44,513 nt of DNA from Gemmobacter nectariphilus. Lineage in GTDB: Bacteria > Pseudomonadota > Alphaproteobacteria > Rhodobacterales > Rhodobacteraceae. The stretch covers positions 1-44,513 of the forward strand of contig DYMU01000022.1 of NCBI GenBank assembly GCA_020721445.1, in the 5' to 3' direction. The notes under the pieces were generated by a model that had not been told where the DNA came from, did not search any database, and saw nothing but the letters and a program-made list of their open reading frames with translations. Positions 6,396-34,924 of the stretch are shown here, piece by piece; position 1 is the first letter of the stretch; the number at the start of each line of letters is the position of its first letter. The position numbers and the translations under genes were made by a program.

Positions 6396-7047
6396 GTTGT
6401 TCAAGTGTCCTCTGTTTTCTTTGCACGGGTCTTGGCGCACCGCCGCCGTGACCGTTTACCTGTCCCGGGCGAACCGCAGGCCTGTGCCCTTGGACGCGCG
6501 TGCGCAAAGGCGTGTGACCTGTGGCACTGTGCCCCGCTGGCCAATCCCAACCCGACCGCAGCCGCCACGCGTCGCGCTTTCGCCAGTCGGGTGATTTTTG
6601 TCTGCAAGGCCGCGTTCAAGAACAGTCAACAAGATGCGCGCCCAGCGGCCCGGCTTGCCGGGACAGACATCGGAAAAGACAGGGGTCCGATGTCTCATCT
6701 TTCATTCCACGGTCGGCCAAGTTTGCAGTGCAGTATCCGGCATGTATGTCGCGCATGTGACAATCAGCCCTGTGCGTTTCGGGAAAAGCCCGCGCCGGAA
6801 CAGGGAAAGACTGCAGGCCGGTCCAAGCGGAAAGACCTGCCACTGCGGTCTTGTTCACCGATGCACCAGCGGGTTCCTTTCGTTCGGTGATCGGGCGGCA
6901 AGGCCGCGTGCTGGCCGCGATCTGATCGGCACCCCGGTTCATCGGGCCACACCGGCCATGACATGCACATGCCAGAGGCAGCCGAAGCTCGGCACACAAA
7001 GGCGACCGTCTGGTGATGATCGGGTGTTTTCAGTCCGCCAAGTGACC
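6396..7047. other. Intergenic region upstream of btaA, no gene seen
   Basis: This 650-base stretch separates opgC from btaA. Open frames inside it (for example 6616-6999 minus) have biased, Cys-rich translations that resemble no protein family and lack good ribosome sites. The only candidate signal is a weak Pho-box-like repeat at 6746-6763. Confidence 0.6.
6746..6763 (-). promoter_or_regulatory. Weak Pho-box-like repeat upstream of btaA
   Basis: On the minus strand TTGTCAC-ATGC-GCGACAT resembles two 7-base Pho half-sites (consensus CTGTCAT) 4 bases apart. The first half matches 5 of 7, the second about 4 of 7. It is some 350 bases from the btaA start, farther than usual, so this is tentative. 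Confidence 0.25.
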
Positions 7048-8217
7048 TCAGCGCGCAGACAGGGCAAGGTTCGGGGCCTTTGCCACAGTCAGCCTGACGC
7101 CGTGCAGTCTTTGCCGGTCGCGAACATGGGCCACGATGACCAGAATGCAGATGCCGGTGGCAATCAGCAAGGTATCGAACAGCACTGATACAGGCTCTAT
7201 CGCCTTGGTGACCTGCGCGACATAGGCCAGCACCGTTCCGGTGGCGAAGACCGGCAGGGAATGGCGGCCCAGCAGCACAAACACGCCAAGTCGCGGGCTG
7301 GCGGCCAGCGTCCTGAGCGATGGCAAGGCGCTGACGATATAGGCCAGCGCAAGAATGTGCAGCAGACGGGGCAAGGATACAAAACTCTTGTCGAAAGCGG
7401 TGAAAAGCGACGGCACCGAGGCGTATTCATAGAGCAGCCAAAGCCCGTGCCCGCCCCAAGCGGCGACCAGAGGCACCTGAATCCAGACCGCTGCGACAAC
7501 CACAAAGCCCACAGCCAGACGCAGCGGCCAGTGCCTGATGGGCAAGAACCGCTGCCCCCTGCGCATGGCAAGCCCGGTCAGAACCCCGGCGACAAACAGC
7601 ACCTGCCAGGCCAAGGGGTTGAAGAACCAGCCATAATCCGTAGGCCAGGTCGGCATCTTGATGGTCAGCACGCCCGCCACAAGCCACAGCAGCAGCGACG
7701 CCGCCATTGTCGACTTTGGCCAATGCACGGCGGAAAACAGAATGGCGGGGGCCGTGATCATCAAGACAATGTAAAGCGGCAAGATATCGGCATAGGCAAA
7801 GTGATGGCCCAGCAGGACCAGCGGTGCCATCATCGCTACCGGGTGTTCCACCGCGCGCAGGATGCTGCGATCCTGGGCCATCACCGCGACCCCGGAGTGG
7901 TCAATCGTCAGCGCAAACAGGGCCACGATGCAAAACAACGCCAGAACATGCACCCACCACAGCGTCAGTGCCCGGTGCCAGGGTCGCAGGGCCTGAGCAA
8001 GGCTGGGCCGGCCGCGCAGGAAGTCCGGGCCATAGGCCAACCCGGTGGCAATGCCGGACATCAGGACAAACGCCTCGGCGGCATCGGAAAAGCCGAAGTT
8101 GCGCGAAGTGAAGTTCTCCCAGATCGTGCCCGGCACGTGGTTGATGAAGATCATCACCAGCGCGATGCCGCGCAACAGATCAATCCGAAGATCGCGAAGA
8201 TGCGGTGTTTCAGGCAT
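7048..8217 (-). CDS. opgC: OpgC, succinyl-modifying membrane protein of periplasmic glucans
   Basis: OpgC-family proteins attach succinyl residues to osmoregulated periplasmic glucans from the inner membrane. This 389-residue polytopic protein begins with the family signature 'RDLRIDLLRGIALVMIFINH' (residues 7-26), followed by 'FVLMSGIATGLAYG' and about ten hydrophobic segments. Late in the protein 'LGRHSLPVFATGTVLAYV' is typical of the acyltransferase-3-like fold. The start overlaps the opgH end by 8 bases. The order opgG-small ORF-opgH-opgC matches the Rhodobacter sphaeroides opg operon as I recall it. Confidence 0.92.
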   Translation of the reverse strand: MPETPHLRDLRIDLLRGIALVMIFINHVPGTIWENFTSRNFGFSDAAEAFVLMSGIATGLAYGPDFLRGRPSLAQALRPWHRALTLWWVHVLALFCIVALFALTIDHSGVAVMAQDRSILRAVEHPVAMMAPLVLLGHHFAYADILPLYIVLMITAPAILFSAVHWPKSTMAASLLLWLVAGVLTIKMPTWPTDYGWFFNPLAWQVLFVAGVLTGLAMRRGQRFLPIRHWPLRLAVGFVVVAAVWIQVPLVAAWGGHGLWLLYEYASVPSLFTAFDKSFVSLPRLLHILALAYIVSALPSLRTLAASPRLGVFVLLGRHSLPVFATGTVLAYVAQVTKAIEPVSVLFDTLLIATGICILVIVAHVRDRQRLHGVRLTVAKAPNLALSAR

Positions 8218-9985
8218 ATTTCAAATCCGCTGTCGCCGTGTTCCATCGTGCAAGGATCGCGTCGTGCCAGGCCACGATGGGCGGGGTTGACTGGTCTGTC
8301 GGCACCTGAAACTGGCCGGGTGATGCGGTGCGCGAGGTCCACCAGATCACCAGTGGCGCCGCAATCATCGGCAAGGCCACCGGCAGCAACCACACGGTCA
8401 GGACCGGCGCATAAACCTGCGTGATCGCAATGCCTGCGCCGCCCCACAGGCTGATCCAGCGCCCGCCTGACCAGGCCTCGGCAAAGCTCAGGCCACCGTC
8501 ACCACGGTTGTTGGGTGGCCAGCCGCCATCCAGACCCAGCAAAACCTGAAAAACCGACCGGCTTTGAAAGGCCAGCAGCACCGGGGCATAAAGCGACGAC
8601 AGCGCAAGTTCCGAAAAGACCGCCCGCAAGCTTTTGCCCGCACCGCCAAAGCCCCTTGCGCGCCCCGTCACGATGGCGGTCAGCACAACCAGCAATTTGG
8701 GCATCACCAGCAAACCGAAAACCCCGATCGCAAGGCCAATGGCCTTGGGGGTTTCATCATTGGGAAACACCGGAAACGGCCAGTTTTCCTGCGGGAAATA
8801 GTCCAACTCACCGCCCCAATAGATCGCCGCGACGGATGCCGCGATAAAGCCCAGCCAGACCAGCGGCGCAAGATAGGCGAAAATCCCCTGAAACAGCGAA
8901 AACCGGCTCCAGGGCAGCAGCCCGGGGGCGGCTATCACCTTGCTGTGTTGCAGGTTGCCCTGACACCACCGCCGGTCGCGCTTGGCATGGTCGATGATGT
9001 TTTCGGGGCCTTCCTCATACGATCCTTGCAGATCGTCATCCAGCCGCACAATCCACCCGGCGCGGGCCAGGAGCGCCGCTTCGACATAGTCATGGCTCAG
9101 GATATGGCCGCCAAATGGCGGCCTGCCCGACAGCTCTGGCAGGCCACAGCTTTCGGCCCAGGCCTTGATGCGGACGATGGCGTTATGGCCCCAGAACGGC
9201 CCGACCCTGCCCTGCATCGCGGCAAGCCCCCGCGCGAAGGCCGGCGAATGGAACGCGGCCGCAAACTGCATCGCGCGCCCGAACAGCGACCGGGCCCGGA
9301 TCACCTTTGGCAAGGTTTGCAGCAGGCCCAACTCGGGCTCGGCCTCGATCCGGCGGATCATCTCAAGGATGGTCTCGCCCTCCATCAGACTGTCCGCGTC
9401 AAGGATCACGGCGTAATCCCAGGCCGCACCCGAGGTGGTGATGAAGTCTTCGATATTGCCCGCTTTGCGGCCGATGTTCTTTTCGCGACGGCGATAGAAC
9501 ATCCGTCCCGGCCCGTTTTGTTCCGCAAGCAGCCGCCCGAACCACTGCCGTTCAGCCGCAGCGATGGCGTCGTCGCGCGTGTCTGACAGCACCGCAAAAT
9601 CGACGTGCGCGGCCGTTCCCGTGGCACGCAAGGATTGGTCCATCGCCGCGATCCGGGCAAAGGTGGCCACCGGATCTTCGTTATAGACCGGAACGATCAC
9701 CACGGTCTTGCCCCGGATCGGCCCCTGTTCCCGCAGCACCGGGCGGGCGCGCGACGTCAGCCCCAAAAGCGCTGTTGCGGCCCCCCAGGCCAGCCACCAG
9801 GTGGACAGCAGGATCAGCAGCGTGCGCACCACGTCGATCCACGACATGCCATCGGCAGAGCCGTAGATGAAAAACACCATGGCCGCCACCGTCGCCGCCA
9901 GCACGCTGGACAACAGGGCAAGAACGCGTGCCCCGCCAGCGCGATAACTGACCGCACCCGGTTTCGTTGTGACCGTCCGTGTCAT
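8210..9985 (-). CDS. opgH: Glucans biosynthesis glucosyltransferase OpgH (MdoH)
   Basis: OpgH polymerises UDP-glucose into the beta-1,2-glucan backbone and moves it across the inner membrane. The 591-residue protein has two N-terminal membrane spans (about 21-42 and 52-75), a GT2 domain with 'VIVPVYNEDP', 'AVLSDT', the metal-binding 'ILDADSLMEG', 'ILSHDYVEAALLARAGW' and the acceptor-site motif 'RDRRWCQGN', then several C-terminal spans. It is far shorter than the 847-residue E. coli protein: the long N-terminal cytoplasmic region and part of the C-terminus are missing. A separate 66-residue protein is encoded 3 bases upstream, where that N-terminal region would be. Confidence 0.95.
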   Translation of the reverse strand: MTRTVTTKPGAVSYRAGGARVLALLSSVLAATVAAMVFFIYGSADGMSWIDVVRTLLILLSTWWLAWGAATALLGLTSRARPVLREQGPIRGKTVVIVPVYNEDPVATFARIAAMDQSLRATGTAAHVDFAVLSDTRDDAIAAAERQWFGRLLAEQNGPGRMFYRRREKNIGRKAGNIEDFITTSGAAWDYAVILDADSLMEGETILEMIRRIEAEPELGLLQTLPKVIRARSLFGRAMQFAAAFHSPAFARGLAAMQGRVGPFWGHNAIVRIKAWAESCGLPELSGRPPFGGHILSHDYVEAALLARAGWIVRLDDDLQGSYEEGPENIIDHAKRDRRWCQGNLQHSKVIAAPGLLPWSRFSLFQGIFAYLAPLVWLGFIAASVAAIYWGGELDYFPQENWPFPVFPNDETPKAIGLAIGVFGLLVMPKLLVVLTAIVTGRARGFGGAGKSLRAVFSELALSSLYAPVLLAFQSRSVFQVLLGLDGGWPPNNRGDGGLSFAEAWSGGRWISLWGGAGIAITQVYAPVLTVWLLPVALPMIAAPLVIWWTSRTASPGQFQVPTDQSTPPIVAWHDAILARWNTATADLKYA

Positions 9986-18721: not shown

Positions 18722-18751
18722 AAATGCGGGCGGGACCTCCCGCCCGCATTT
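18722..18751 (+). terminator. Stem-loop between phnD and phnC
   Basis: AAATGCGGGCGGGA and TCCCGCCCGCATTT form a 14-base perfect inverted repeat separated by CC, ending in TTT. It lies 15 bases after the phnD stop and 25 before phnC. As in the pst operon, it would favour phnD over the membrane genes by partial termination or mRNA protection. Confidence 0.8.
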
Positions 18752-21292: not shown

Positions 21293-22198
21293 TCACATCG
21301 CCATGCACGCATCAGCCCGTTCGCAGGGCGTACGCTCCAGTTGCACGGTGACATGGCCAATCCCGAAGTCATGGTCCAACTCGTCTGTCACATGGTCGAT
21401 GAAGGCATCCGGGTCGGCGCCGTCCCAGACAATATGCACAGCCAGCGCGGTGCGGGTGGTGGACAGCGCCCAGATGTGCAGATCGTGCACGTTGCTCACG
21501 CCGTCTTGCGCGCCCAGCCAGTCAGCCACCGCCTGTCGGTCAATCGCGTCTGGTACCCCGTCCAGTTCCAGCCGCAGCGCATCGCGCAACAGGCCCCAGG
21601 CCGTCCAGGCGATCAGCACGCTGACCGCGATAGCCACGGCTGGGTCAAGCCATTGCCAGCCGGTCAGCATGATGCCCGCCGCCGCCAGCACGACCGCGCC
21701 AGACACCGCCGCATCTGCCGCCATGTGCAGATAGGCGCCCTTGGCGTTCAGGTCGTCCTTTTTGGATGCCATGAACAACAGCGCCGATCCGGTGTTCACC
21801 CCGATGCCGACCAGCGCCACCAGAAGGATCGTCAGCCCCGGCACTTCGACCACGGATTGAAACCGCTGCGCTGCCTCCCAGACCACCACCACGACACCGA
21901 TCAGGATCGCCATTGCGTTCAGCATGGCGGCCAGAATGGTGGCGCGGCCATAGCCAAAGGTAAAGGCGGCCGTGCCCGCCCGCTTGGCAAGAACCGCCGC
22001 CCCCCAAGCGATCAGCAGCCCTGCGACATCGGTCAGGTTATGCCCGGCATCGGCCAAAAGCGCCAGCGAGCCGGTCAGGAACCCGGCCGTTGCCTCGACA
22101 ATGACGTAAGAGGTGTTCAACCCCACCGCCCAGCGAAAGGCCGGGCCAAGATCGGCGGGTGGTTTGTGGGCGTGGGCGTGGGCGTGATCATGGGCCAT
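21293..22198 (-). CDS. Cation diffusion facilitator metal exporter (ZitB/CzcD type)
   Basis: A 301-residue inner-membrane exporter that swaps cytoplasmic Zn2+ or a similar divalent cation for protons. The His-rich start 'MAHDHAHAHAH' is a metal-capture tail. There are six spans, with the transport-site residues in 'LLADAGHNLTD' (His53, Asp57) and 'HMAADAAVSG', and a C-terminal ferredoxin-like domain with 'VHDLHIWALSTTRTALAVHI'. The start at 22198 was chosen for this His-rich start; the frame upstream lies in the OsmC gene. It is the last gene of the ArsR-headed series, 4 bases after the OsmC stop. Confidence 0.92.
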   Translation of the reverse strand: MAHDHAHAHAHKPPADLGPAFRWAVGLNTSYVIVEATAGFLTGSLALLADAGHNLTDVAGLLIAWGAAVLAKRAGTAAFTFGYGRATILAAMLNAMAILIGVVVVVWEAAQRFQSVVEVPGLTILLVALVGIGVNTGSALLFMASKKDDLNAKGAYLHMAADAAVSGAVVLAAAGIMLTGWQWLDPAVAIAVSVLIAWTAWGLLRDALRLELDGVPDAIDRQAVADWLGAQDGVSNVHDLHIWALSTTRTALAVHIVWDGADPDAFIDHVTDELDHDFGIGHVTVQLERTPCERADACMAM

Positions 22199-22202
22199 GG
22201 GG

Positions 22203-22607
22203 TCAATCTTTCCGCCGGATGGTGCCGACCAATTCGGTGGCACCCGCCAAGGTGTTGTAGATGGTGCCATATTTTTGCAGGTTCTTATGTAGCAGCGCCA
22301 GGCGCGCATCAGACTCGTCAGTCTCCACCACGATGTCATAGGCGATGCGGATCATCTTCGGCGGGCTGTCCTGCCGCACCCCGTGCAGGGAAACCTCGAT
22401 GCCGCGCAGATCGAATTGCAGCATCGGGATTACCCGCTCGGTCCCCTTCAGGATGCAGGCGGCCAGACTGGCCAGCAGCATCTCGGCCGGGTTGAAGGCA
22501 TCCGCCCGCCCGGCCATGTCGGTGTCCAGCACGATCCGCGCATCCTTGGTCATCGCCGCCGACCCGTGGCTGTCGATGCGGCGGGCCGAGACGTGGTATT
22601 CCAGCAT
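22203..22607 (-). CDS. OsmC-family protein
   Basis: OsmC/YhfA proteins are dimeric thiol enzymes that reduce organic hydroperoxides or act on persulfides. This 134-residue member has the redox Cys in 'LLASLAACILKGTERVIPM' (Cys51); the second Cys of the classical OsmC/Ohr pair is not present, which is closer to the YhfA type. The start at 22607 has a good ribosome site (AAAGGAG). It lies between the TSUP permease and CDF genes and is probably co-transcribed with both. Confidence 0.85.
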   Translation of the reverse strand: MLEYHVSARRIDSHGSAAMTKDARIVLDTDMAGRADAFNPAEMLLASLAACILKGTERVIPMLQFDLRGIEVSLHGVRQDSPPKMIRIAYDIVVETDESDARLALLHKNLQKYGTIYNTLAGATELVGTIRRKD

Positions 22608-22618
22608 GGTCGCTCCTT

Positions 22619-23362
22619 TCAGGCCCAAAGGCCCCAGATCATCTTTGCCGCCAACATCAGCAGAAATGCGGCGATCAGTTTCTTGACATGGGCGGCACTC
22701 AGGCCGCGATGCAGGATCGTGGCCCCGAGAACCCCGCCAAGGGTGGCGGCAACCCCGACAACCGCCAGCAGCGGCCAATCCATCGGTGTGAACGACAGAT
22801 AGGTCAGAAACGCCCCCGCCGTGGAAAACGGAATGACAAAGCCGATGGCGCGGGCCGCCTTCTTGGCATCGTAGCCCAAAAGGATCAGCGCCGGCATCAG
22901 CAAGGCGCCGCCGCCCACGCCCAACATCCCCGACAGCGCGCCGACACCGCCGCCGATGGCCAGCAGGGGCCATGCGCTGTCATTGTGCAGCAGCGTCGGG
23001 CGGCGTGGGATCAAAAGCAGTGTAGCGGCCACAATCAGGAAAACCGTCAAGATCGCTTCCAGCACCCCGTGGGGCACGAACTGGCTGAACCAGGCCCCGA
23101 CCGGCGTTGCGACAAGCACGGCCAGCACCAGCGGCACGGCAAACCGCACCTCCAGCACCCCATGCCGGAAATGCGTGACCGAAGCGGCGGCGGTTGCAGC
23201 GGTGTTGACAAACAGCCCCAGCGCACGGGCCAGATCAAAAGGCAGCCCCGCCATCGACAGGCTGGGCACCAGCGCAATGGCCGATCCGACACCCCCCATC
23301 GAAAACAGCGTGGACAGCGCCAGCGTCAGGGCGAAATACAGGCTGTAATCGGCAAGGGTCAT
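22619..23362 (-). CDS. TSUP-family membrane permease (TauE/SafE type)
   Basis: A 247-residue polytopic protein with the duplicated TSUP signature: 'GGVGSAIALVPSLSMAGLP' near residue 25 and 'GGGVGALSGMLGVGGGALLMPAL' near 138. TauE/SafE proteins move sulfite, sulfoacetate, thiosulfate or other small sulfur anions. The ATG at 23362 shares a base with the stop of the small upstream gene (TGATG), so translation is coupled; an overlapping GTG at 23365 is possible. In this operon a sulfur-compound role fits the rhodanese and thioredoxin-like neighbours. Confidence 0.88.
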   Translation of the reverse strand: MTLADYSLYFALTLALSTLFSMGGVGSAIALVPSLSMAGLPFDLARALGLFVNTAATAAASVTHFRHGVLEVRFAVPLVLAVLVATPVGAWFSQFVPHGVLEAILTVFLIVAATLLLIPRRPTLLHNDSAWPLLAIGGGVGALSGMLGVGGGALLMPALILLGYDAKKAARAIGFVIPFSTAGAFLTYLSFTPMDWPLLAVVGVAATLGGVLGATILHRGLSAAHVKKLIAAFLLMLAAKMIWGLWA

Positions 23363-23538
23363 CACTGATTGGCCCTGTCATCGCGCGCGCTGTCACTGCG
23401 CCGCCCGTCAACCAGCATCAGCATCCCGGCAGTGAAATGGCGCGAGCGATATCCGTTCAGCGTCAGATAAAGCCGCACGATCTGGGCCCGCGCATCATGA
23501 TCAAAGGCCCGCGGGTCGTTGTCGAAATCATGGCGCAT
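23362..23538 (-). CDS. 58-residue protein coupled to the TSUP gene
   Basis: ATG at 23538 preceded 6 bases upstream by a perfect AGGAGG ribosome site; the stop overlaps the TSUP start as TGATG. The translation begins MRHDFDNDPRAFDHDARAQI and continues with a conserved-looking 'VRLYLTLNGYRSRHFTAGM' before a hydrophilic tail. It has no signal peptide or metal-site motif beyond three His. I do not recognise the family. Its ribosome site and tight coupling make it a real gene even though it is short. Confidence 0.7.
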   Translation of the reverse strand: MRHDFDNDPRAFDHDARAQIVRLYLTLNGYRSRHFTAGMLMLVDGRRSDSARDDRANQ

Positions 23539-23577
23539 CAGCGCCTCCTGTTCTGGCCGTGCTGCTGCGCCCGGCGC

Positions 23578-24486
23578 TTATTCGAACTCCATCTGCACGA
23601 AGGCCACTTCGGCATTCTTGCGCGACAGGCTGTCGAACTGTTCAAGCCCGGCAAAGGCCGACTGGTCCACGCCGGCCGCCCCGGACAAATCGCCGCCGGT
23701 TTCGATCAGGGCCGCGATCTGCGCCAGCAGGTTCATCAGATAGTCATAGGTGTCGGCGCGGGCGCGGTCCATCGTGGTGGCGTGGCCGTGGCCGGGCACG
23801 ACATGGCTGGCCCCGGTGGCCGCCATCGCCTCGAACGCCGCGGGCCAGTCGGTGATCGACGATTGCTCGCCCACCCCCAGAATCCGTTCGACATAGACGA
23901 TGTCACCGGTGAACACCGTGTCCTTTTGCGGCACGAACACGAAGCTGTCGCCCGGCGTATGCGCCGGCCCCGGATGGGTGATCTGAAAGCTGATCGCGCC
24001 CAGATCAAAGGCATGGTTGTCCGTAAAGGTCACGTCGGCATAGGCTGGTTCGGTTCCCGCCAACCCCTCGCCCAGAAACTGCGCAAGGCCCATCATCTGC
24101 ATATCGGCACGGGCGTGGTGGTCCTGAACCGCCGCCGCGGACGCGATCACCGTCGCCCCCTGCCCCTGCCAATAGCCGTTGCCCAGCCAACGGTGATCCT
24201 GACCGCCGGTGTTGATGACATATTTCACCGGCTGGTCGGTCAGACTGCGGATCGTGTCATGCAGCATCTCGGCCCCCTTCCACGACCCGCCGGGGTCCAT
24301 CAGCACCGCGCCCGCGTCTGTCACCACCAGCCCGAAGGTGGCGTTGTTGGCAAGGTTGGCGGCATCGCGCTGTTCCTTGGGGCCAACGATGGCCCAGACG
24401 CCGTCGGTGACAGGTTGCACTTCAAGCACTTCGGCAAGGGCCGCAAGTGGCGACAGGGTCAGCAAGGCGGCAAGGACAAAACGCAT
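23578..24486 (-). CDS. Secreted metallo-beta-lactamase-fold protein with an altered metal site
   Basis: A 302-residue protein with a Sec signal peptide (1-18, 'FVLAALLTLSPLAALA') and a metallo-beta-lactamase fold related to the SoxH-type hydrolases. The usual H-x-H-x-D-H metal motif reads 'NTGGQDHRWLGN' at residues 92-103: the first two His are Gly94 and Gln96, while Asp97 and His98 remain. Later ligands are present: 'PAHTPGD' (His176), 'FTGD' (Asp195) and 'VPGHGH' (His233). So one of the two metal positions is probably lost. It may be a mononuclear enzyme or a binding protein. The start at 24486 was chosen for the signal peptide. The substrate is unknown; the operon suggests sulfur or arsenic chemistry. 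Confidence 0.8.
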   Translation of the reverse strand: MRFVLAALLTLSPLAALAEVLEVQPVTDGVWAIVGPKEQRDAANLANNATFGLVVTDAGAVLMDPGGSWKGAEMLHDTIRSLTDQPVKYVINTGGQDHRWLGNGYWQGQGATVIASAAAVQDHHARADMQMMGLAQFLGEGLAGTEPAYADVTFTDNHAFDLGAISFQITHPGPAHTPGDSFVFVPQKDTVFTGDIVYVERILGVGEQSSITDWPAAFEAMAATGASHVVPGHGHATTMDRARADTYDYLMNLLAQIAALIETGGDLSGAAGVDQSAFAGLEQFDSLSRKNAEVAFVQMEFE

Positions 24487-24508
24487 GGGATGCCTTTCAA
24501 GGACGGGT

Positions 24509-24961
24509 TCAGCAGCAGGAAGACGCGGGCGCGCCGCCACAACAGGCGCTGGCCTTGGGTTCGGACGCCCCACCACAGCAGGAAGATGCAGCTTCGGATG
24601 CCGCGACAGCCTCGGCCGAACCGCTGATCGGGAACCCGCGCTGCACCCATCGGGCGATGCCGGGGTTCATGTTCATCACGCGGTCATAGCCCTGATACAT
24701 CAGGAAATACGTGGCCTTCAGGCTGCGCTCGCCCACCGCACAGGCCAGGATCACGTCACGGTCGCGCGGCACGTCCTGCCAGCGGTCCTCAAACTGCGAC
24801 AGCGGGATGGTCACCACATCACAGCCGGCAAAGCCGACCGCCGCCACCTCGGTCGCTTCGCGCACATCGACCAGCAGCGCGCCGCCCGAAAGCAGGCGCT
24901 GCGCGGTGGTGGGGCAGACCTCGCGCGCCTCGGCGAGGTCTTTTCTGACCGCTTCGCTCAT
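24509..24961 (-). CDS. Rhodanese-like sulfurtransferase with a Cys-pair tail
   Basis: A 150-residue cytoplasmic protein. Residues 15-112 form one rhodanese domain: 'LLVDVREATE' and the active-site loop 'ACAVGERS' with Cys74, which would carry a persulfide. The last 25 residues are an add-on with three vicinal Cys pairs at 128-129, 140-141 and 149-150, two followed by Gly-Gly. Such pairs can bind arsenite or soft metals. Start at 24961, 11 bases past the thioredoxin-like gene stop. Only the domain call is certain; metal binding is inference. Confidence 0.88.
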   Translation of the reverse strand: MSEAVRKDLAEAREVCPTTAQRLLSGGALLVDVREATEVAAVGFAGCDVVTIPLSQFEDRWQDVPRDRDVILACAVGERSLKATYFLMYQGYDRVMNMNPGIARWVQRGFPISGSAEAVAASEAASSCCGGASEPKASACCGGAPASSCC

Positions 24962-24972
24962 TGTTGCCTCCT

Positions 24973-25203
24973 CTATGCCAGCCAGCCCAACACCTGATCC
25001 GGCGACGGGACAGACCCCTTGTGCACGACCTTGCCGCCCACCACCACGGCGGGGGTGGTCATCACGCCGAAGGAAACGATCTGGCGCATGTCCTCGATCT
25101 TTTCGATGGTGACAGCCTTGCCCGCCTGATCCGCCACGCGGCTGATCAGATCGGCGGTGGCCTTGCATTTGGCGCAGCCGGGGCCCAGAACCTTGATGTC
25201 CAT
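24973..25203 (-). CDS. Small thioredoxin-like redox protein
   Basis: A 76-residue thioredoxin-fold protein of the 'redox-active disulfide protein 2' type: 'MDIKVLGPGCAKCKAT' holds the CxxC pair Cys10/Cys13, and 'GVMTTPAVVVGGKVVHKG' gives the cis-Pro loop. These proteins regularly accompany DUF318 permeases, as here (gap of 11 bases). It probably passes electrons or thiols to the permease or its cargo. The start at 25203 was chosen by family length. Confidence 0.9.
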   Translation of the reverse strand: MDIKVLGPGCAKCKATADLISRVADQAGKAVTIEKIEDMRQIVSFGVMTTPAVVVGGKVVHKGSVPSPDQVLGWLA

Positions 25204-25214
25204 GGTTTGTCCTT

Positions 25215-26273
25215 TCAGAACAGAAAGTTGAACAGATAGCCGACGGCGAGGATGCCAGAACCCACCACAGCGATGAACACGGCGATCAGGCGCAGGGTCA
25301 GCACCTGTTTCAGGATGATCATCTCGGGCAGGCTCAGCGCGATCACGCTCATCATGAAGGCCAGCACGGTGCCCAGCGCCGCGCCCTTGCCCAACAGCGC
25401 CTCGACAATCGGGATAACCCCGGCAGCATTGGTGTACATAGGGATTCCGATCACCACGGCGGCGGGCACGCTCCACCACGCATCCGCCCCCATGATGCGC
25501 GCCATCAGGTCTTGCGGCACATAGCCGTGGATCAGCGCGCCGATGCCGATGCCAAGGATGATCCACATCCAGACCCGACCAAAGATCTCGCGCACCACCT
25601 CGATCCCCAGATGATAGCGATCGACCAGCCGCAGCGGCGCATCATCGGCAGCGTCGGGGGCCGTGGCCCCGGAATGGATGTCGCGCACCCAGTCCTGCAA
25701 CCAGCCCTCCAGCTTCAGCTTGCCGATGACCCAGCCCGCGACCACGGCGATGGTCAGGCCAAAGGCGGCATAAGTTACAGCCACTTTCCAGCCGACCAGC
25801 CCGAACAACAGCACCAGCGCCACCTCGTTCACCATCGGGGCCGAGATCAGAAAGGAAAACGTCACCCCCAAAGGCACCCCCGCCGACACCAGCCCGATGA
25901 ACAAGGGCACAGCCGAGCAGGAACAGAACGGCGTCATCACGCCAAGCCCCGCCGCCATCACGTTGCCCACCCCTTCGCGCTTGCCCGCCAACAGCGCCCG
26001 CGTGCGTTCGGGCGAAAAGTAGCTGCGCAAAACCCCCATCGCAAAGACGATCAGCGTCAGCAGCATCATGACCTTGGGCACGTCGTAGAAGAAAAACGCA
26101 ATCGCCTCACCGGTGTGGCTGTGGCGGTCAACCGGGAACAGCGCAGTGATCCACTCCGACAGCGGGATCAACTGGCGATAGACCAGCCACCAGACGGCGA
26201 CAAAGCCGATCAGGCCCGCATGCCAGACCCAGTCGGGCCGTGCCGAAGGATGGGATGTGGTTTGCACGCTCAT
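25215..26273 (-). CDS. DUF318/ArsP-type membrane permease
   Basis: A 352-residue polytopic permease of PF03773. The diagnostic 'VMTPFCSCSAVPLF' puts Cys117 and Cys119 in a membrane segment, and a repeat-related 'GIPMYTNAAGVIPI' follows in the second half. A cytoplasmic loop near residues 200-225 links the halves. Family members include ArsP, which exports trivalent organoarsenicals, and others of unknown substrate. It overlaps the ArsR stop by 4 bases, so an arsenic or soft-metal efflux role is likely. The exact cargo is open, so I give no gene symbol. Confidence 0.88.
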   Translation of the reverse strand: MSVQTTSHPSARPDWVWHAGLIGFVAVWWLVYRQLIPLSEWITALFPVDRHSHTGEAIAFFFYDVPKVMMLLTLIVFAMGVLRSYFSPERTRALLAGKREGVGNVMAAGLGVMTPFCSCSAVPLFIGLVSAGVPLGVTFSFLISAPMVNEVALVLLFGLVGWKVAVTYAAFGLTIAVVAGWVIGKLKLEGWLQDWVRDIHSGATAPDAADDAPLRLVDRYHLGIEVVREIFGRVWMWIILGIGIGALIHGYVPQDLMARIMGADAWWSVPAAVVIGIPMYTNAAGVIPIVEALLGKGAALGTVLAFMMSVIALSLPEMIILKQVLTLRLIAVFIAVVGSGILAVGYLFNFLF

Positions 26274-26560
26274 GCCGCAACCCTTTCCTCGGCATCGGCA
26301 GCGGCCAGAACCGCCTCGACAATGGCCCGCACCTCGGGGGCAAGATCAGGGCGCAGCCGATAGCGCACCCATTGGGCATCGCGCCGGTCCACCACCAGAC
26401 CTGCCTGCTTCAGGGTTTGCATGTGCCGCGACATCCGGCTTTGCGTCGCATCAAGCCGGCGCATCAGATCGCAGACACAATGTTCGCGGCCATCGGCCAA
26501 GATGCGCACCGCGCCAAGGCGGGTCGGTTCGGACAGGGCAGAAAGGATGGCAATGGGCAT
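26270..26560 (-). CDS. arsR: ArsR-family repressor with CVC arsenite-sensor motif
   Basis: A 96-residue winged-helix repressor. 'HCVCDLM' at residues 27-33 carries Cys28 and Cys30 in the recognition-region helix, matching the ELCVCDL arsenite/antimonite site of plasmid R773 and E. coli ArsR. The DNA helix is 'ATQSRMSRHMQTLKQAGLV'. It heads the operon permease-trx-rhodanese-MBL-58 aa-TSUP-OsmC-CDF and overlaps the permease by 4 bases. A 24-base palindrome 55 bases upstream is its probable operator. Arsenite should therefore induce the whole series (inference from the sensor motif). Confidence 0.92.
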   Translation of the reverse strand: MPIAILSALSEPTRLGAVRILADGREHCVCDLMRRLDATQSRMSRHMQTLKQAGLVVDRRDAQWVRYRLRPDLAPEVRAIVEAVLAAADAEERVAA

Positions 26561-26614
26561 GATGTGCCTCTGCGCTTATGCGCCAAACCGCAAATACTCC
26601 TGGCGGCGACCTGC

Positions 26615-26638
26615 GTCAATCGGAATATGCCGATTGAC
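26615..26638. promoter_or_regulatory. ArsR operator candidate (palindrome)
   Basis: GTCAATCGG-AATATG-CCGATTGAC is a perfect inverted repeat with 9-base arms, 55 bases before the arsR start at 26560. Its core, ATCG-N8-CGAT, recurs in the promoter of the other arsR (28193-28208). Confidence 0.75.
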
Positions 26639-26819
26639 CAGCACAACTCAGGCGCTGGTCCCACATCCGAAGAAACGGCTGTTGGGGCCAAGCAGTCACG
26701 CCCCTGCAATCGCGTGACACATCACCCGAACCGAAAGCTGCTGGGCACCTTTGACAGGACAGGGATGCCCCGGATCGGGTGACCGGGTTGGGGGCGGTGC
26801 CGATTCTGCGGCGGCAAGG

Positions 26820-27839
26820 TCAGGCCGGAAACCTGCCCCGCGTGCGGTTGGCGAAAGCCACCAGCGACAGCATCACCGGCACCTCGACCAGCACGCCGAC
26901 CACCGTGGCCAGGGCGGCACCCGAGTTCAGGCCGAAAAGACCGATGGCCACCGCCACCGCCAGTTCAAAGAAGTTCGACGTGCCGATCAGCGCGCAAGGG
27001 GCGGCCACCTTGTGCGGCAGTTTCCAGGCAAAGGCCCAGGCATAGCCAAGCGCAAAGATGCCATAGGATTGCAGGATGATCGGCACGGCGATCAGCGCGA
27101 TCAGCAGCGGTTGCGCGATGATGACTTGCCCCTGAAAGCCGAACAGCAGCACCACGGTCAGCAACAGACCAAGGACCGATGCGGGCTTGATCCGCGCGGT
27201 AAAGTCCGACACCGCCGCTTCGCCCCCGCGCGCCATCAAGGCCCGCCGTGTCAGCGCCCCCGCAATCAGCGGAATGACAATGTAAAGGACGACCGACAGG
27301 ATCAGCGTCTGCCACGGCACTGCAATATTGGTCACGCCCAGCAAAAACGCCACGATGGGTGCAAAAGCCACGGCCATGATCAGATCGTTCACGCTGACCT
27401 GCACCAGCGTGTAATTCGGATCCCCCTTGGTCAGCTGCGACCAGACAAACACCATCGCCGTGCAGGGTGCGGCCCCAAGAAGGATCAGCCCCGCGATGTA
27501 TTCCGGTGCCTTTGCCGGGTCGATCAGCCCGGCAAACAGGTGGTTGAAGAACAGCACCGCCAGTGCTGCCATGGTAAAGGGCTTGATCAGCCAGTTGATC
27601 ACCAGCGTGATGATCAACCCTTTTGGCCGCCGCCCCACATCCCTGAGCGACCCAAAGTCGATGGCGATCATCATCGGATAGACCATCGCCCAGATCAGCA
27701 CAGCCACGACAAGGTTGACCGAGGCGTATTCAAAGCCAGCCAAGGCCCCGAACAGGCCGGGCATCAGATTGCCCAGCAGCAACCCCGCCAGAATGCACAG
27801 GGCCACCCAAAGGGTCAGCCAGCGTTCAAACAGGCTCAT
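26820..27839 (-). CDS. acr3: Arsenite efflux permease ACR3
   Basis: Acr3 expels arsenite from the cytoplasm using the proton gradient. The 339-residue protein has ten spans; '[22 protein letters not shown]' holds the essential Cys126 of the family, and '[14 protein letters not shown]' the conserved Glu of the second repeat. The ATG at 27839 overlaps the arsR stop by 4 bases; the frame upstream of it is arsR in another frame. It gets rid of arsenite that escapes periplasmic oxidation by AioBA. Confidence 0.95.
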
Positions 27840-31924: not shown

Positions 31925-32452
31925 ATGAAATGCAATCGGTTGGTCGATGTCGGCCGCCGTCAGTTCCTGCGCGGCGGTGTTCTCGGCGTGGCGGGGGCTG
32001 CGGCGGCAACGGTCATGCCCGCAGGGCAGGCACAGGCGCAGCAGGCGCGGGCGATGTTGGATTATCCATCAAACAAACTGGCCAATCTGGCCGATCTGAA
32101 GGTGAACGAGCCGATGGATATCGGCTATCCCGATGCCGACAGCCCCGGCATCTTGCTGAAACTGGGCGCAGCGGTCGAAGGCGGTGCCGGACCCGATGGC
32201 GATATCGTCGCCTATTCGGTGCTGTGCCCGCACAAGGGCTATTCCCTGTCCTACCACGCTGCCGACAAGACCCTGAACTGCCCCGGCCATTTCAGCCGCT
32301 TTGATTGCGAAAAAGGCGGCCAGCAGGTCTGGGGCCATGCCACGCAGAACCTGCCGCAATTTTCGCTGCGGGTGGATGACGCGGGCGACATTTACGCCGA
32401 AGGTGCGGACGAGCTGATTTACGGCCGTCTGTCCAACGTGCTGCAAGGGTAA
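31925..32452 (+). CDS. aioB: Arsenite oxidase small subunit, Rieske protein
   Basis: AioB passes electrons from AioA to a cytochrome c or other acceptor in the periplasm. The 175-residue precursor has a perfect twin-arginine signal 'GRRQFLRGGVLGVAGAA' (10-26), which exports the folded AioA partner too. The [2Fe-2S] ligands are Cys101-x-His103 ('CPHKGY') and Cys119-x-x-His122 ('CPGH'). The two loop positions that form a disulfide in beta-proteobacterial AioB are Tyr106 and Gly121, so there is none, as in the Rhizobium NT-26 enzyme. The ribosome site GGGAGG is about 8 bases before ATG. Twelve bases separate it from aioA. Confidence 0.97.
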   Translation: MKCNRLVDVGRRQFLRGGVLGVAGAAAATVMPAGQAQAQQARAMLDYPSNKLANLADLKVNEPMDIGYPDADSPGILLKLGAAVEGGAGPDGDIVAYSVLCPHKGYSLSYHAADKTLNCPGHFSRFDCEKGGQQVWGHATQNLPQFSLRVDDAGDIYAEGADELIYGRLSNVLQG

Positions 32453-32464
32453 GGGGGCGAGATC

Positions 32465-34924
32465 ATGGCTTTCAAACGCAACATCGACCGTCTGCCGATC
32501 ATTCCCGCAGGCGCCAAGGAACACAATGTCACCTGCCACTACTGCATCGTCGGCTGTGGCTACAAAGCCTACACCTGGCCGCTGAAAAAGCAGGGCACCA
32601 CCGACAGCAACTGGATCGGTGAAGACCTGTCCCGGCAGCAGGGCGTGGAAACCGAGGCGTGGTATGCGCCCTCGATGTACAACGTCGTCAAGCAGAACGG
32701 GCAGGATGTGCATCTGGTCATCAAGCCGGATGTGAATTGCGAGGTGAACGCGGGCCTTGGGTCCGTGCGCGGCGCGCGCATGGCCGAAAACCGCCGCTCT
32801 GAAATCACCGGCACACAGGCGCAGCGCCTGACCGAACCAATGGTCTGGCGCTATGGCACATGGCAGCCGACAAGCTGGGACGAAGCGCTGGATCTGGTGG
32901 CCCGCGTCACCGCCCGCGTGATCGACAAGGACGACGAGGATGATCTTTACGTCTCGATGTTCGACCATGGCGGCAGTGCTGGCGGCTATGAAAACACCTG
33001 GGGCACTGGCAAGCTGTATTTCGGGTCGATGAAGGTCAAGCATTGCCGCATCCACAACCGCCCCGCCTATAACTCCGAGGTGCACAGCACCCGCGACATG
33101 GGCGTGGACGAGCTGAACTATTCCTACACCGACTATCAGAACACTGACACGATCCTGCTGGTCGGCACCAACCCGATCGAATGCCAGACCAACCTGTTCC
33201 TGAACCACATGGTCAAGGGCATGCAGAACGGCGCCAAGGTGATCGTGGTCGATCCGCGCCGCACCGTGACGGTGGACGCCTGCGAGCAGGTGGCGGGGGC
33301 CGAAAACGTGCTGCATCTGGCAATTGCCAGCGGCAGCGATCTGGCGCTGTTCAACACCCTCTTCACCTACATTGCCGACCAGCGCTGGGTGGATGCCGAT
33401 TTCATCGCGAAATCCACATTCCAGGGCGATGTGGCGGTGGCCGAAGATGCCGCCCACCCGGCAGCACTCGGGTCGTTCGAGGCGGCGCGGGCGGCGGTGA
33501 AGATGACCCTTGCCGAAGGTGCGGCCATCACCGGCCTGACCGAGGCGCAGATCATGCAAGCCGCCGAGTGGATCGCCAAGCCCAAGGACGACGGCAGCCG
33601 CCGCAAATGCGTGACCGGCTATGAAAAGGGCATCATCTGGGGCAACGACAACTATCGCGTCATCGGGGCATTGGTGAACATCGGCCTTGCCACCGGCAAT
33701 ATCGGTCGGATCGGCGGCGGCACCTGCCGTCTGGGTGGCCATCAGGAAGGCTACTTCCGCCCGTCGGACGCCCATGTTGGCCGCCCTGCCCCCTACATCG
33801 ACCAGTTGCTGATCGCGGGCGGCGGAAAGGTTCACCACATCTGGGCCAACGACCACTACAAGACCACGCTCAACGCCGCCGAGTTCAAGCGCGTCTACAA
33901 CAAACGCTCGAACATGGTGAAAGAAGCGATGGACGCCCGCGCCGGGGCCACGCGCGAGGAGTTGATCGACGCCATCGTCGGCGCGATCGAGGCGGGTGGC
34001 ATTTTCAGCGTCTGCGTCGACATCATCCACAGCCAGATCGGACAGGCGGCCCATGTCATCCTGCCGGCGGTGGAATCGGGCGAAATGAACCTGACCTCGA
34101 TGAACGGCGAACGCCGCCTGCGGCTGGTCGAGAAATACATGGACGCGCCTGGTTCGGCCCAGCCTGACTGCATCATTGCCGCCCGCTTGGCCAACCACAT
34201 GGAACGCGTGCTGCGTGAGGAAGGCCGTGCGGAGTATGCCGACCAGTTCAAGGGCTATGACTGGAAGACCGAAGAAGATGCCTTCATCGACGGCTACAAT
34301 TCGGGCAATCCGGAAGTGACCTACGAACGTCTGCGGGCCGCTGGCAACAACGGCGTGCAGGAACCGGTCAAGGGGTTTGAAAACGGCGCGCTGGTCGGCA
34401 CGCCGCGGCTTTACGAAGACGGCGTCTTTACCCGGCATGGCCGTGAAGACGGCAAGGCGCTGTTCTGCATGGGTGCATGGCGGGGCTTGCAAGCCCCCGG
34501 CAAGGCACAGCAAAAAGCCAGCTTCCGCTTTCTGATCAACGCCGGACGCGCCAACCTGAACTGGCAGAACTGGTTCCTTGACCAGAAGAATGAGTTCGTC
34601 ATGGACCGCTTCCCGGTGCCCTTCATCCAGATCAACCCCGACGACATGGCAGATCTGGGTCTGAAACCCGGCGATATGGTCGAGGTCTATAACGATGTCG
34701 GCGCGACACAAGGGCTGGTCTATCCCGAACCGACCGCGCGCCGGAACGAGACCTTCATGATCTTCGGCGCTCCGAACGGCACCCAAGGCAACGTCATCAA
34801 CGCCGGCACCAACGAGTTGATCTTGCCAAACTACAAGCAGACCTGGGCCAACATCCGCAAGATCTCGGATGCCACCCCGGCTGCGGCGCGGGTGTCCTAC
34901 AAGTCGTGGGAAGTGGAACTCTGA
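32465..34924 (+). CDS. aioA: Arsenite oxidase large subunit, molybdopterin enzyme
   Basis: AioA oxidises arsenite to arsenate at a Mo-bis-MGD centre in the periplasm. The 819-residue protein is of normal length for Aio. 'CHYCIVGCGYKAY' gives Cys24, Cys27 and Cys31, the CxxCxxxC motif of the [3Fe-4S] cluster; the fourth Cys of related enzymes is absent, as expected. Further family strings are 'DHGGSAGGYENTWGTGKLYF', 'HNRPAYNSEVHSTRDMG', 'LLVGTNPIECQTNLFLNH' and 'RFLINAGRANLNWQNWF'. It has no signal of its own and relies on AioB for Tat export. No cytochrome c gene follows, unlike many aio operons. Confidence 0.98.
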   Translation: MAFKRNIDRLPIIPAGAKEHNVTCHYCIVGCGYKAYTWPLKKQGTTDSNWIGEDLSRQQGVETEAWYAPSMYNVVKQNGQDVHLVIKPDVNCEVNAGLGSVRGARMAENRRSEITGTQAQRLTEPMVWRYGTWQPTSWDEALDLVARVTARVIDKDDEDDLYVSMFDHGGSAGGYENTWGTGKLYFGSMKVKHCRIHNRPAYNSEVHSTRDMGVDELNYSYTDYQNTDTILLVGTNPIECQTNLFLNHMVKGMQNGAKVIVVDPRRTVTVDACEQVAGAENVLHLAIASGSDLALFNTLFTYIADQRWVDADFIAKSTFQGDVAVAEDAAHPAALGSFEAARAAVKMTLAEGAAITGLTEAQIMQAAEWIAKPKDDGSRRKCVTGYEKGIIWGNDNYRVIGALVNIGLATGNIGRIGGGTCRLGGHQEGYFRPSDAHVGRPAPYIDQLLIAGGGKVHHIWANDHYKTTLNAAEFKRVYNKRSNMVKEAMDARAGATREELIDAIVGAIEAGGIFSVCVDIIHSQIGQAAHVILPAVESGEMNLTSMNGERRLRLVEKYMDAPGSAQPDCIIAARLANHMERVLREEGRAEYADQFKGYDWKTEEDAFIDGYNSGNPEVTYERLRAAGNNGVQEPVKGFENGALVGTPRLYEDGVFTRHGREDGKALFCMGAWRGLQAPGKAQQKASFRFLINAGRANLNWQNWFLDQKNEFVMDRFPVPFIQINPDDMADLGLKPGDMVEVYNDVGATQGLVYPEPTARRNETFMIFGAPNGTQGNVINAGTNELILPNYKQTWANIRKISDATPAAARVSYKSWEVEL

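Follow-up and report, generated by a model that had tools for sequence, protein, structure and literature searches.

An arsR-arsP-thioredoxin operon with thiol, sulfur and metal accessory genes beside acr3 and aioBA in Gemmobacter nectariphilus

In the ArsEFG organoarsenical system a permease acts together with small redox proteins. BigR operons combine an ArsR-family repressor with a rhodanese, an MBL-fold protein and a TSUP permease. Mechanisms of resistance to thioarsenate should exist and are yet to be verified, according to a passage of a 2018 review (PMC6205960). Here we describe a locus in a 44,513-nucleotide stretch of contig DYMU01000022.1 (hereafter the window), for which an earlier note had proposed an operon handling arsenic jointly with sulfur. 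The reading that we prefer, and to which we give about an even chance, is that of an arsenite-induced arsenic-efflux operon in which an arsR-arsP-trx core carries swappable thiol, sulfane-sulfur and metal accessories.

Gene content and upstream sequences

Nine minus-strand reading frames run from 26560 down to 21293 (Table 1), packed as closely as the earlier note had stated, with junctions between a 4-nt overlap and a 39-nt gap. The acr3 and aioBA genes that it placed beside the operon were also recovered (TIGR00832, TIGR02694 and TIGR02693). Its gene identities held for eight of the nine frames, each with a Pfam/NCBIfam match of the type named. The ninth, p58, had no Pfam/NCBIfam match. Its last ~44 residues share 66% identity with the C-terminus of the rhodanese (133 aa) encoded at a related locus, L069, and the p58 region is 80% identical to L069 at the DNA level, collinear onward into TSUP. 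We reject p58 as a new small protein and regard it as the C-terminal remnant of a second, decayed rhodanese.

Table 1. Features of the operon, its context genes and its upstream DNA (window positions).
Feature	Position	Strand	Basis or remark
arsR1, ArsR/SmtB repressor	26270..26560	-	NF033788, 84.6 bits (cut-off 55)
arsP, DUF318/ArsP_1 permease, FCSCS motif	25215..26273	-	PF03773, 239 bits (cut-off 32.3)
trx, small CxxC thioredoxin-like, MTH895/ArsE family	24973..25203	-	TIGR00412, 95.2 bits (cut-off 62)
Single-domain rhodanese, Cys-rich tail	24509..24961	-	PF00581, 35.6 bits (cut-off 22.2)
MBL-fold protein, signal-like N-terminus, SoxH-like paralogue	23578..24486	-	PF00753; TIGR04559 best, under cut-off
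p58, 58-aa ORF, rhodanese C-terminal remnant	23362..23538	-	similarity to L069 rhodanese
TSUP/TauE-SafE permease	22619..23362, or GTG start at 23365	-	PF01925, 130 bits (cut-off 32.6)
OsmC-like protein	22203..22607	-	PF02566
CDF cation exporter, His-rich N-terminus	21293..22198	-	TIGR01297, 239 bits (cut-off 82)
acr3 arsenite exporter, context gene upstream of operon	26820..27839	-	TIGR00832, 407 bits
aioB-aioA arsenite oxidase, context genes	31925..34924	+	TIGR02694 and TIGR02693, above cut-off
Imperfect 24-base palindrome, candidate operator	26615..26638	-	54 nt upstream of arsR; 11/12 pairs
Degenerate copy of the clade's operator-like motif, TGGCGCATAAGCGCA	26571..26585	-	best window copy, 2 mismatches to ATGCGCATAA

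The residues expected of the core are well preserved. ArsR1 has two cysteines, both within the CVC arsenite motif that had been claimed for it (EHCVCDL), and the orthologues extracted at 55% identity or more all have CxC (72 of 72), with CVC in 66. The CSCS motif of ArsP is kept in 93 of 94 extracted relatives, and the thioredoxin CxxC in all 93 extracted proteins longer than 60 aa. For these motif counts, arsR and arsP were extracted only from matches with 55% identity or more, and arsP proteins of up to 250 aa and trx proteins of up to 60 aa were excluded. Matches of arsP to the NCBIfam SaoE and SO_0444 Cu/Zn exporter models fell far under the cut-offs. No ArsM or ArsH scored above the curated cut-off in the host genome, so methylarsenite would need an outside source; host-made methylarsenite was rejected for want of ArsM.

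The palindrome upstream of arsR, described as perfect in the earlier note, pairs at only 11 of 12 positions. The window holds two 24-base palindromes of such quality, this one at 26615 and one at 18725, where 20 letter shuffles averaged 0.1, and a consensus search of the window returned the 26615-26638 site alone, with none in 100 shuffles. At the same place in relatives, L071 retains a perfect 20-base core, L070 a copy with 4 mismatches and L069 one with 5; genome-wide there was one further match, on contig C44, with 3 mismatches. In consensus searches of window and genome, the palindrome was not common to acr3 or aio. Its role as a clade-wide operator is not supported, as most relatives have ATGCGCATAA instead, nearer arsR. 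Allowing up to one mismatch, 56 of 82 loci carry this motif in the DNA preceding arsR, against 0 of 82 letter shuffles (one shuffle per sequence; 82 of 83 loci, L069 being omitted for its N runs).

A SoxH-like paralogue and other accessory proteins

The product described in the earlier note as a secreted MBL-fold protein does have that fold (predicted structure, model pLDDT 90.6) and a signal-like N-terminus, and is here corrected to a SoxH-like protein without HxHxDH. It is 36-40% identical to a SoxH-like group that has also lost this motif; GGQDH replaces it in the window protein and in 27 of 29 extracted homologues. Residues H98, H176, D180, D195 and H233 are invariant in the protein and the SoxH-like group (31-row and 28-row alignments). 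This altered metal motif and common ligand set place it in the SoxH-like clan and not with ETHE1 persulfide dioxygenase or canonical MBL proteins, which carry HxHxDH. Membership in SoxH itself (TIGR04559, quinoprotein relay metallohydrolase 2) was not reached, at 154.7 bits for a cut-off of 280, and in a tree the operon MBL proteins formed a clade separate from SoxH with support 100/100. That tree included six SoxH-like rows and omitted two divergent matches (L103, and L144, which adjoins arsP); its "not linked" row L046 sits at a contig end. The host genome contains an apparent sox cluster, its genes named by eye, and together with the SoxH-like nature of the operon protein this gives more weight to a sulfur link.

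The same protein, together with the regulator, bears on whether the locus could be a BigR/SqrR-type sulfide or persulfide operon with a borrowed ArsR-family regulator, unrelated to arsenic. The protein classes of BigR operons would fit, and at locus L151 OsmC and trx adjoin a pyridine nucleotide-disulfide oxidoreductase, judged by eye to resemble SQR. However, ArsR1 scored 39.4 bits against the BigR model, whose cut-off is 155, both of its cysteines lie within CVC, the MBL protein is SoxH-like and lacks HxHxDH, and the neighbors are acr3, aio, arsC and arsJ. We rejected this explanation on the families of the regulator and the MBL protein and consider it highly improbable.

The rhodanese has its domain and an active-site cysteine loop (CAVGERS in the window). 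The loop is kept in 14 of 19 extracted relatives; the other five lack it or are cut short, which counts against our preferred reading. Its tail carries cysteines in the pattern CCGG...CCGG...CC, aligned with 19 relatives, some of them duplicates. OsmC retains one of two peroxidase cysteines, the second position being Gly in aligned homologues; of 32 extracted homologues, 29 have just one Cys, 2 truncated ones have none and 1 has an additional early Cys. A two-Cys OsmC/Ohr peroxidase was rejected because the second Cys is absent. TSUP is rare, occurring in 2 of 198 and 2 of 292 genomes (each time the window's own and G169) and also at L069. Linked just this once more, it was rejected as a member of the conserved core.

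These proteins could serve a thioarsenate pathway, in which the rhodanese and the SoxH-like hydrolase would desulfurate monothioarsenate or methylated thioarsenicals, the arsenical passing to ArsP, Acr3 or AioBA and the sulfur to TSUP. The SoxH-like paralogue and the sox-like cluster of the host are consistent with it, as is the expectation, in part of the review cited above (PMC6205960), of a thioarsenate resistance yet to be verified. Passages of a Thioalkalivibrio study (PMC6620896) cite a proposal that Sox cleaves monothioarsenate and report, for one strain, a rhodanese operon that adjoins arx/ars and is raised by arsenite. The same passages also point the other way: in the other strain the rhodanese operon is neither raised nor adjoins ars, and sox is up in one strain but stable or lower in the strongest arsenite oxidizer. 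TSUP, moreover, is almost absent in relatives, and among the literature matches listed no title concerned SoxH chemistry. On balance we find this pathway distinctly unlikely.

Linkage in related genomes and on plasmids

Conserved linkage was assessed in the best 80 loci of 229 relatives, some cut by contig ends; certain genomes supply two loci (L083/L097, L112/L117, L116/L125). Gene calling used an in-house codon score for which this operon supplied part of the training data, and homologues beyond E 1e-4 are missed in the counts. Named and unnamed sets overlap, and the extracted proteins include duplicates (L056/L072, L058/L135 and L060/L061 look alike). The arsR-arsP-trx core is near universal, with arsR called in 72 of the 80 loci and trx in 78. 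In 29 of the 80 an accessory gene follows on the same strand no more than 6 kb downstream (rhodanese 13, MBL 12, OsmC 15, CDF 9, TSUP 1); when only loci with 5 kb or more of downstream sequence are considered, the figure is 22 of 67 (rhodanese 9, MBL 12, OsmC 10, CDF 7). In the control flanks, only 1 of 65 loci had a match 6-11 kb downstream (MBL) and 1 of 66 within 5 kb upstream (OsmC), the upstream control counting both strands and the remaining linkage counts one.

Thus the neighborhood check proposed in the earlier note was borne out insofar as rhodanese, MBL, OsmC and CDF genes follow arsR-arsP-trx in relatives. No locus among the 80 named ones, which include some truncated by contig ends, has exactly the nine-gene order. 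Rhodanese and MBL genes occur together in 0 of 80 loci and the window has both, which makes its order a hybrid. In the other 51 of the 80, the core, whole or partial, has no recognized accessory; this counts against our preferred reading and indicates that the core stands alone.

In a set of 198 family genomes that includes the window's own, close OsmC genes lie at arsP in 9 of 15 places and close CDF genes in 6 of 7, and rhodanese is at arsP in 5 of the 6 genomes with a close rhodanese. Against our preferred reading, 6 of the 15 OsmC places lie away from operon-type arsP (one beside another arsR/ArsP pair), and of 15 close MBL places 5 are at arsP, 9 elsewhere (for one of these, the upstream sequence extends just 1 kb) and 1 at a contig end. 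A Pannonibacter plasmid copy of MBL is also away from arsP.

Plasmids of NT-26, Comamonas and Citrobacter also carry parts of the operon, and strains with parts of the set include Rhodobacter capsulatus SB1003, NT-26 and Agrobacterium albertimagni AOL15. Of 12 plasmid rhodanese records, 11 adjoin a trx/permease pair (judged by annotation for 6 and by feature names and coordinates for the remaining 6). In the betaproteobacterium Comamonas the order is arsA-arsC-acr3-sigma70-permease-trx-rhodanese-OsmC-DUF2789-CDF, and in NT-26 it is permease-trx-rhodanese-OsmC-P-type ATPase, near arsR and arsC. Plasmid OsmC was examined in 14 of 28 records, 6 at permease-trx and 8 elsewhere within the stretch seen. 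These eight speak against our preferred reading: four lie by a VIT protein, one near another permease and one by aio/pst only, the others being in Sulfuricella (with TauE/CcdA) and Methylocella. Absence of conserved linkage, which the earlier note had named as its refutation, is not what we observed, as linkage exceeds the flank controls and recurs on plasmids of other orders and classes.

Such variability raises the alternative of a passive resistance island, whose genes gain only from joint induction in arsenic- and metal-rich, sulfidic water and share no pathway, CDF dealing with zinc or cadmium, TSUP with a sulfur anion and OsmC with thiol stress. The 80 loci gave 14 called gene strings, some distinct merely by an uncalled arsR; a P-type ATPase occupies the CDF position in Hoeflea and NT-26, and single parts are also found elsewhere, all as such an island would have it. 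Yet the order trx, rhodanese or MBL, OsmC, exporter recurs beyond what free assembly would lead one to expect, OsmC keeping its place across two ArsP subclades and a longer run being found across classes. We regard a passive island as somewhat unlikely.

Proposed function and relation to known systems

In the arsenic-efflux operon that we prefer, as read from its sequence, trivalent arsenic on the CVC cysteines would release ArsR from its candidate operator, and ArsP would export an organic or thiol-bound trivalent arsenical. Reduction or release of this arsenical, or of its thiol partner, may fall to the ArsE-like thioredoxin. Sulfane sulfur liberated from persulfides or thio-conjugates would be transferred by the rhodanese, whose Cys-rich tail may bind As(III). 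The one-Cys OsmC and the exported SoxH-like metallohydrolase could act on the resulting thiol or thio products inside and outside the membrane; TSUP would probably export a sulfur anion, and CDF might export metal cations displaced from thiols by arsenite or co-occurring with arsenic. It seems to us unlikely that thio-arsenic or arsenic-persulfide adducts have a pathway of their own here, built on the SoxH offshoot, an As(III)-binding Cys-tailed rhodanese, a one-Cys OsmC and an arsenite-switched ArsP-thioredoxin pair.

Of the joint arsenic and sulfur operon first proposed, the conserved accessories and the SoxH kinship stand; the single further linkage of TSUP, the p58 remnant and the missing second Cys of OsmC tell against it. 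The accessories are a swappable set on a known core rather than one fixed nine-gene system. Overlapping gene sets linked to the exporter in many bacteria suggest a recurring add-on to arsenic resistance, one that is often plasmid-borne and brings sulfur-transfer proteins and a SoxH-like paralogue together with an arsenite-type regulator and exporter.

Word searches of the open-access literature returned nothing on point for ArsP with rhodanese and OsmC, for OsmC with arsenite operons or for OsmC with aioA, and 0 matches for OsmC with sulfane sulfur and persulfide; to call the gene set undescribed is based solely on these searches. An earlier paper on ars operons recorded arsP and, separately from it, small redox proteins, which accompany arsC in 7 of 8 instances; its main text mentions neither rhodanese nor OsmC by name. 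With the ArsP methylarsenite/roxarsone permease the locus shares the Pfam family ArsP_1 (PF03773) and an adjoining arsR, but here a CxxC thioredoxin accompanies arsP in 78 of 80 loci. The likeness to ArsEFG lies in the NCBIfam family name of the thioredoxin, MTH895/ArsE. BigR operons have similar protein classes, whereas the regulator and the MBL protein here come from other families. Finally, the operon MBL protein is akin to SoxH of the Sox system, but belongs to a separate clade and is placed in an arsenic operon.

Operon layout and regulation

The nine-gene operon proposed in the earlier note was recovered as nine minus-strand open reading frames, whose junctions overlap by up to 4 nt or leave gaps of up to 39 nt. 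The same genes were found by a codon-usage gene caller, itself trained partly on these genes. Eight of the nine gene names assigned earlier are backed by Pfam or NCBIfam, while the ninth is without such backing. The window makes up one complete contig of the 3.07 Mb host genome, and the operon surroundings are an arsenic island. The convergent permease gene stops 97 nt from the operon end; acr3 is separated from the operon by 259 nt on the same strand, so read-through from acr3 is possible.

Features of the window and of compared loci, with positions in nucleotides
Feature	Sequence	Position	Remark
Nine-gene operon	window	26560-21293	minus strand
p58	window	23362-23538	58-aa ORF
Phosphonate-type permease gene	window	21195 (stop)	convergent with operon
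acr3	window		upstream, same strand as operon
Substrate-binding protein, sensor kinase, response regulator	window		arranged like aioX-S-R of NT-26
aioB-aioA	window		arsenic-island neighbour of operon
pst-like and phn-like transporter genes	window		arsenic-island neighbours of operon
Second 24-base site	window	18725-18748	11/12 pairing, GC-rich, between phnD-like and phnC-like genes
Sulfur-type cluster	L151, relative	6523-9134	OsmC away from arsP
arsP in two separate pieces	L044, relative	5816-6514	permease looks broken
CDF gene	L157, relative (G034)	7082-9248	split by two transposase-like genes
Apparent whole sox cluster (by eye)	host, G000:C7 (L176)	62312-72713	two MBL genes at end, then YeeE-like gene

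Upstream of arsR, ATGCGCATAA was detected with at most one mismatch in 56/82 loci, at a distance of 16-63 nt from the arsR start, whereas letter shuffles gave 0/82; the loci being related, 56/82 is no independent count. The window carries a degenerate copy at this place together with the reported 24-base palindrome, which had been called perfect and pairs at 11/12 positions. The palindrome core is perfect in one relative (L071) and weaker in two others (L069 and L070). Since neither exact 8-9-base pieces of ATGCGCATAA nor a second copy of the palindrome recur elsewhere in the window, the operon probably has a control of its own. The second 24-base site, perhaps a stem-loop, is unrelated to this operon.

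Linkage of the accessory genes to the core

An ArsP-clade search was run against the named genome collection and the best 80 of 229 relatives were kept, among which arsR was called in 72/80 and trx in 78/80. Directly downstream on the same strand, we found rhodanese in 13, MBL in 12, OsmC in 15, CDF in 9 and TSUP in 1 of these loci, the last together with a second rhodanese. At least one accessory was present in 29/80 and none was recognised in 51/80; rhodanese and MBL occurred together in 0 of the 80. Restricting the count to the 67 loci whose downstream sequence extends 5 kb or more gave 9, 12, 10, 7 and 0, respectively. Control stretches yielded 1 MBL match (6-11 kb downstream, 65 loci) and 1 OsmC match (5 kb upstream, 66 loci).

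Across 198 family genomes, close CDF genes were at arsP in 6/7 places, close rhodanese in 5/6 genomes and close OsmC in 9 of 15 places, window included. Of 15 places with a close-group MBL gene, 5 were at arsP and 9 were elsewhere, the last one lying at the end of its contig. TSUP was restricted to the window's genome and one other, unlinked, in the 198 genomes and again in an overlapping set of 292. Among the six OsmC places away from arsP, L152 adjoins another arsR/ArsP pair and L151 combines OsmC with trx and a pyridine nucleotide-disulfide oxidoreductase; the remaining four have no such context among the genes called. The oxidoreductase of the L151 cluster resembles SQR by eye; also present are trx, DUF2798, OsmC and one small protein that, again by eye, resembles DsrE and has no Pfam match. 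No arsR was seen there. Despite the broken-looking arsP of L044, its downstream trx, MBL, OsmC and CDF were matched nearly full-length.

Conserved residues and the origins of p58 and MBL

CxC is kept in 72/72 ArsR1 orthologues (CVC in 66) and CSCS in 93/94 extracted ArsP relatives. The rhodanese active-site loop is present in 14/19 relatives and absent in 5/19 (three with a changed loop, two cut short), and 2 to 8 Cys follow residue 112 in all except the two cut-short ones. Permease and trx are kept at the loci with loop-less or cut-short rhodanese (L058/L135, L139, L060/L061), which include Cereibacter sphaeroides plasmids. OsmC homologues, as aligned, keep the first Cys and have Gly at the second Cys position.

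Judged by sequence comparison, p58 is a remnant of a rhodanese, because it aligns with the C-terminal part of the 133-aa L069 rhodanese (66% over 44 aa, beginning directly past the active-site loop, CPHYD in L069) and the DNA of the region matches at 547/686 bases, gapless into the TSUP gene. The L069 order, arsR-arsP-trx-rhodanese-rhodanese2-TSUP with no MBL in between, suggests that MBL was inserted at the second rhodanese.

GGQDH occurs in 27/29 extracted MBL homologues, and H98, H176, D180, D195 and H233 are invariant in a 28-row alignment including the SoxH-like group. The predicted model (mean pLDDT 90.6) best matches 8d2z, an MBL-superfamily protein. In the tree, the window MBL and five other arsenic-linked MBLs group together (99/97). 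The arsenic label requires 4 changes, versus 11.6 in shuffles. A separate clade (100/100) holds the SoxH-like rows. One SoxH-like member is the final gene of a Paracoccus ferrooxidans sox cluster and, judging by gene order, is probably SoxH; the host's own copy closes a sox-like cluster, with genes named by eye.

Proposed working and comparison with other lineages

The core would combine an arsenite-type switch, an exporter and the exporter's redox partner, and the operon tail would add thiol and sulfane-sulfur handling plus a cation pump. No ArsM or ArsH exceeded the cut-off in the host genome; methylarsenite would therefore have an outside origin. Thioarsenate is an attractive candidate for the handled compound, given the sox-like cluster and SoxH-like paralogue. 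Because of this apparently whole sox cluster, the host may be both a sulfur and an arsenite oxidiser. This gene set was not described in the parts of PMC2963123, PMC6620896, PMC6205960, PMC9144182 and PMC10190100 reached by word search of the open-access literature.

Several observations count against linkage, among them the bare core of Martelella and the cut-down rhodanese of Cereibacter. The Meiothermus rhodanese match lies in a rhodanese cluster where ars genes are absent, and arsP is not a neighbour of the Pannonibacter MBL. OsmC is at permease-trx in 6/14 plasmid records examined, of 28; it adjoins a VIT protein on four Rhizobiaceae plasmids, and Sulfuricella and Methylocella records show contexts other than permease-trx. 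Plasmid TauE genes did not match the window TSUP at 1e-25, and so are not close.

In Comamonas (Betaproteobacteria), the order is arsA-arsC-acr3-sigma70-permease-trx-rhodanese-OsmC-DUF2789-CDF, and in Citrobacter Y19 (Gammaproteobacteria) sigma70-TauE-CDF, two opposite-strand genes, then permease-trx-rhodanese-DUF2703. A sigma-70-family factor gene, instead of arsR, heads the permease set or the TauE-CDF part in these two loci (L167, L178). Hoeflea carries arsR-permease-trx-MBL-OsmC-P-type ATPase, Paracoccus seriniphilus arsR-permease-trx-OsmC, and Pseudosulfitobacter arsR-permease-trx-MBL-OsmC-CDF followed by TauE on the opposite strand and, a few genes beyond, an arsenite oxidase large subunit. 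In the arsenite oxidisers NT-26 and NT-25 (L163, L164), a lone 83%-identical OsmC lies between aioX and the pst operon. The plasmid of NT-26 (Rhizobiaceae) harbors permease-trx-rhodanese-OsmC-P-type ATPase near phoB, pstS, arsR and arsC, the lone OsmC beside aioX being the second one of this strain, and R. capsulatus SB1003 has arsR-permease-trx-rhodanese flanked by arsJ and acr3.
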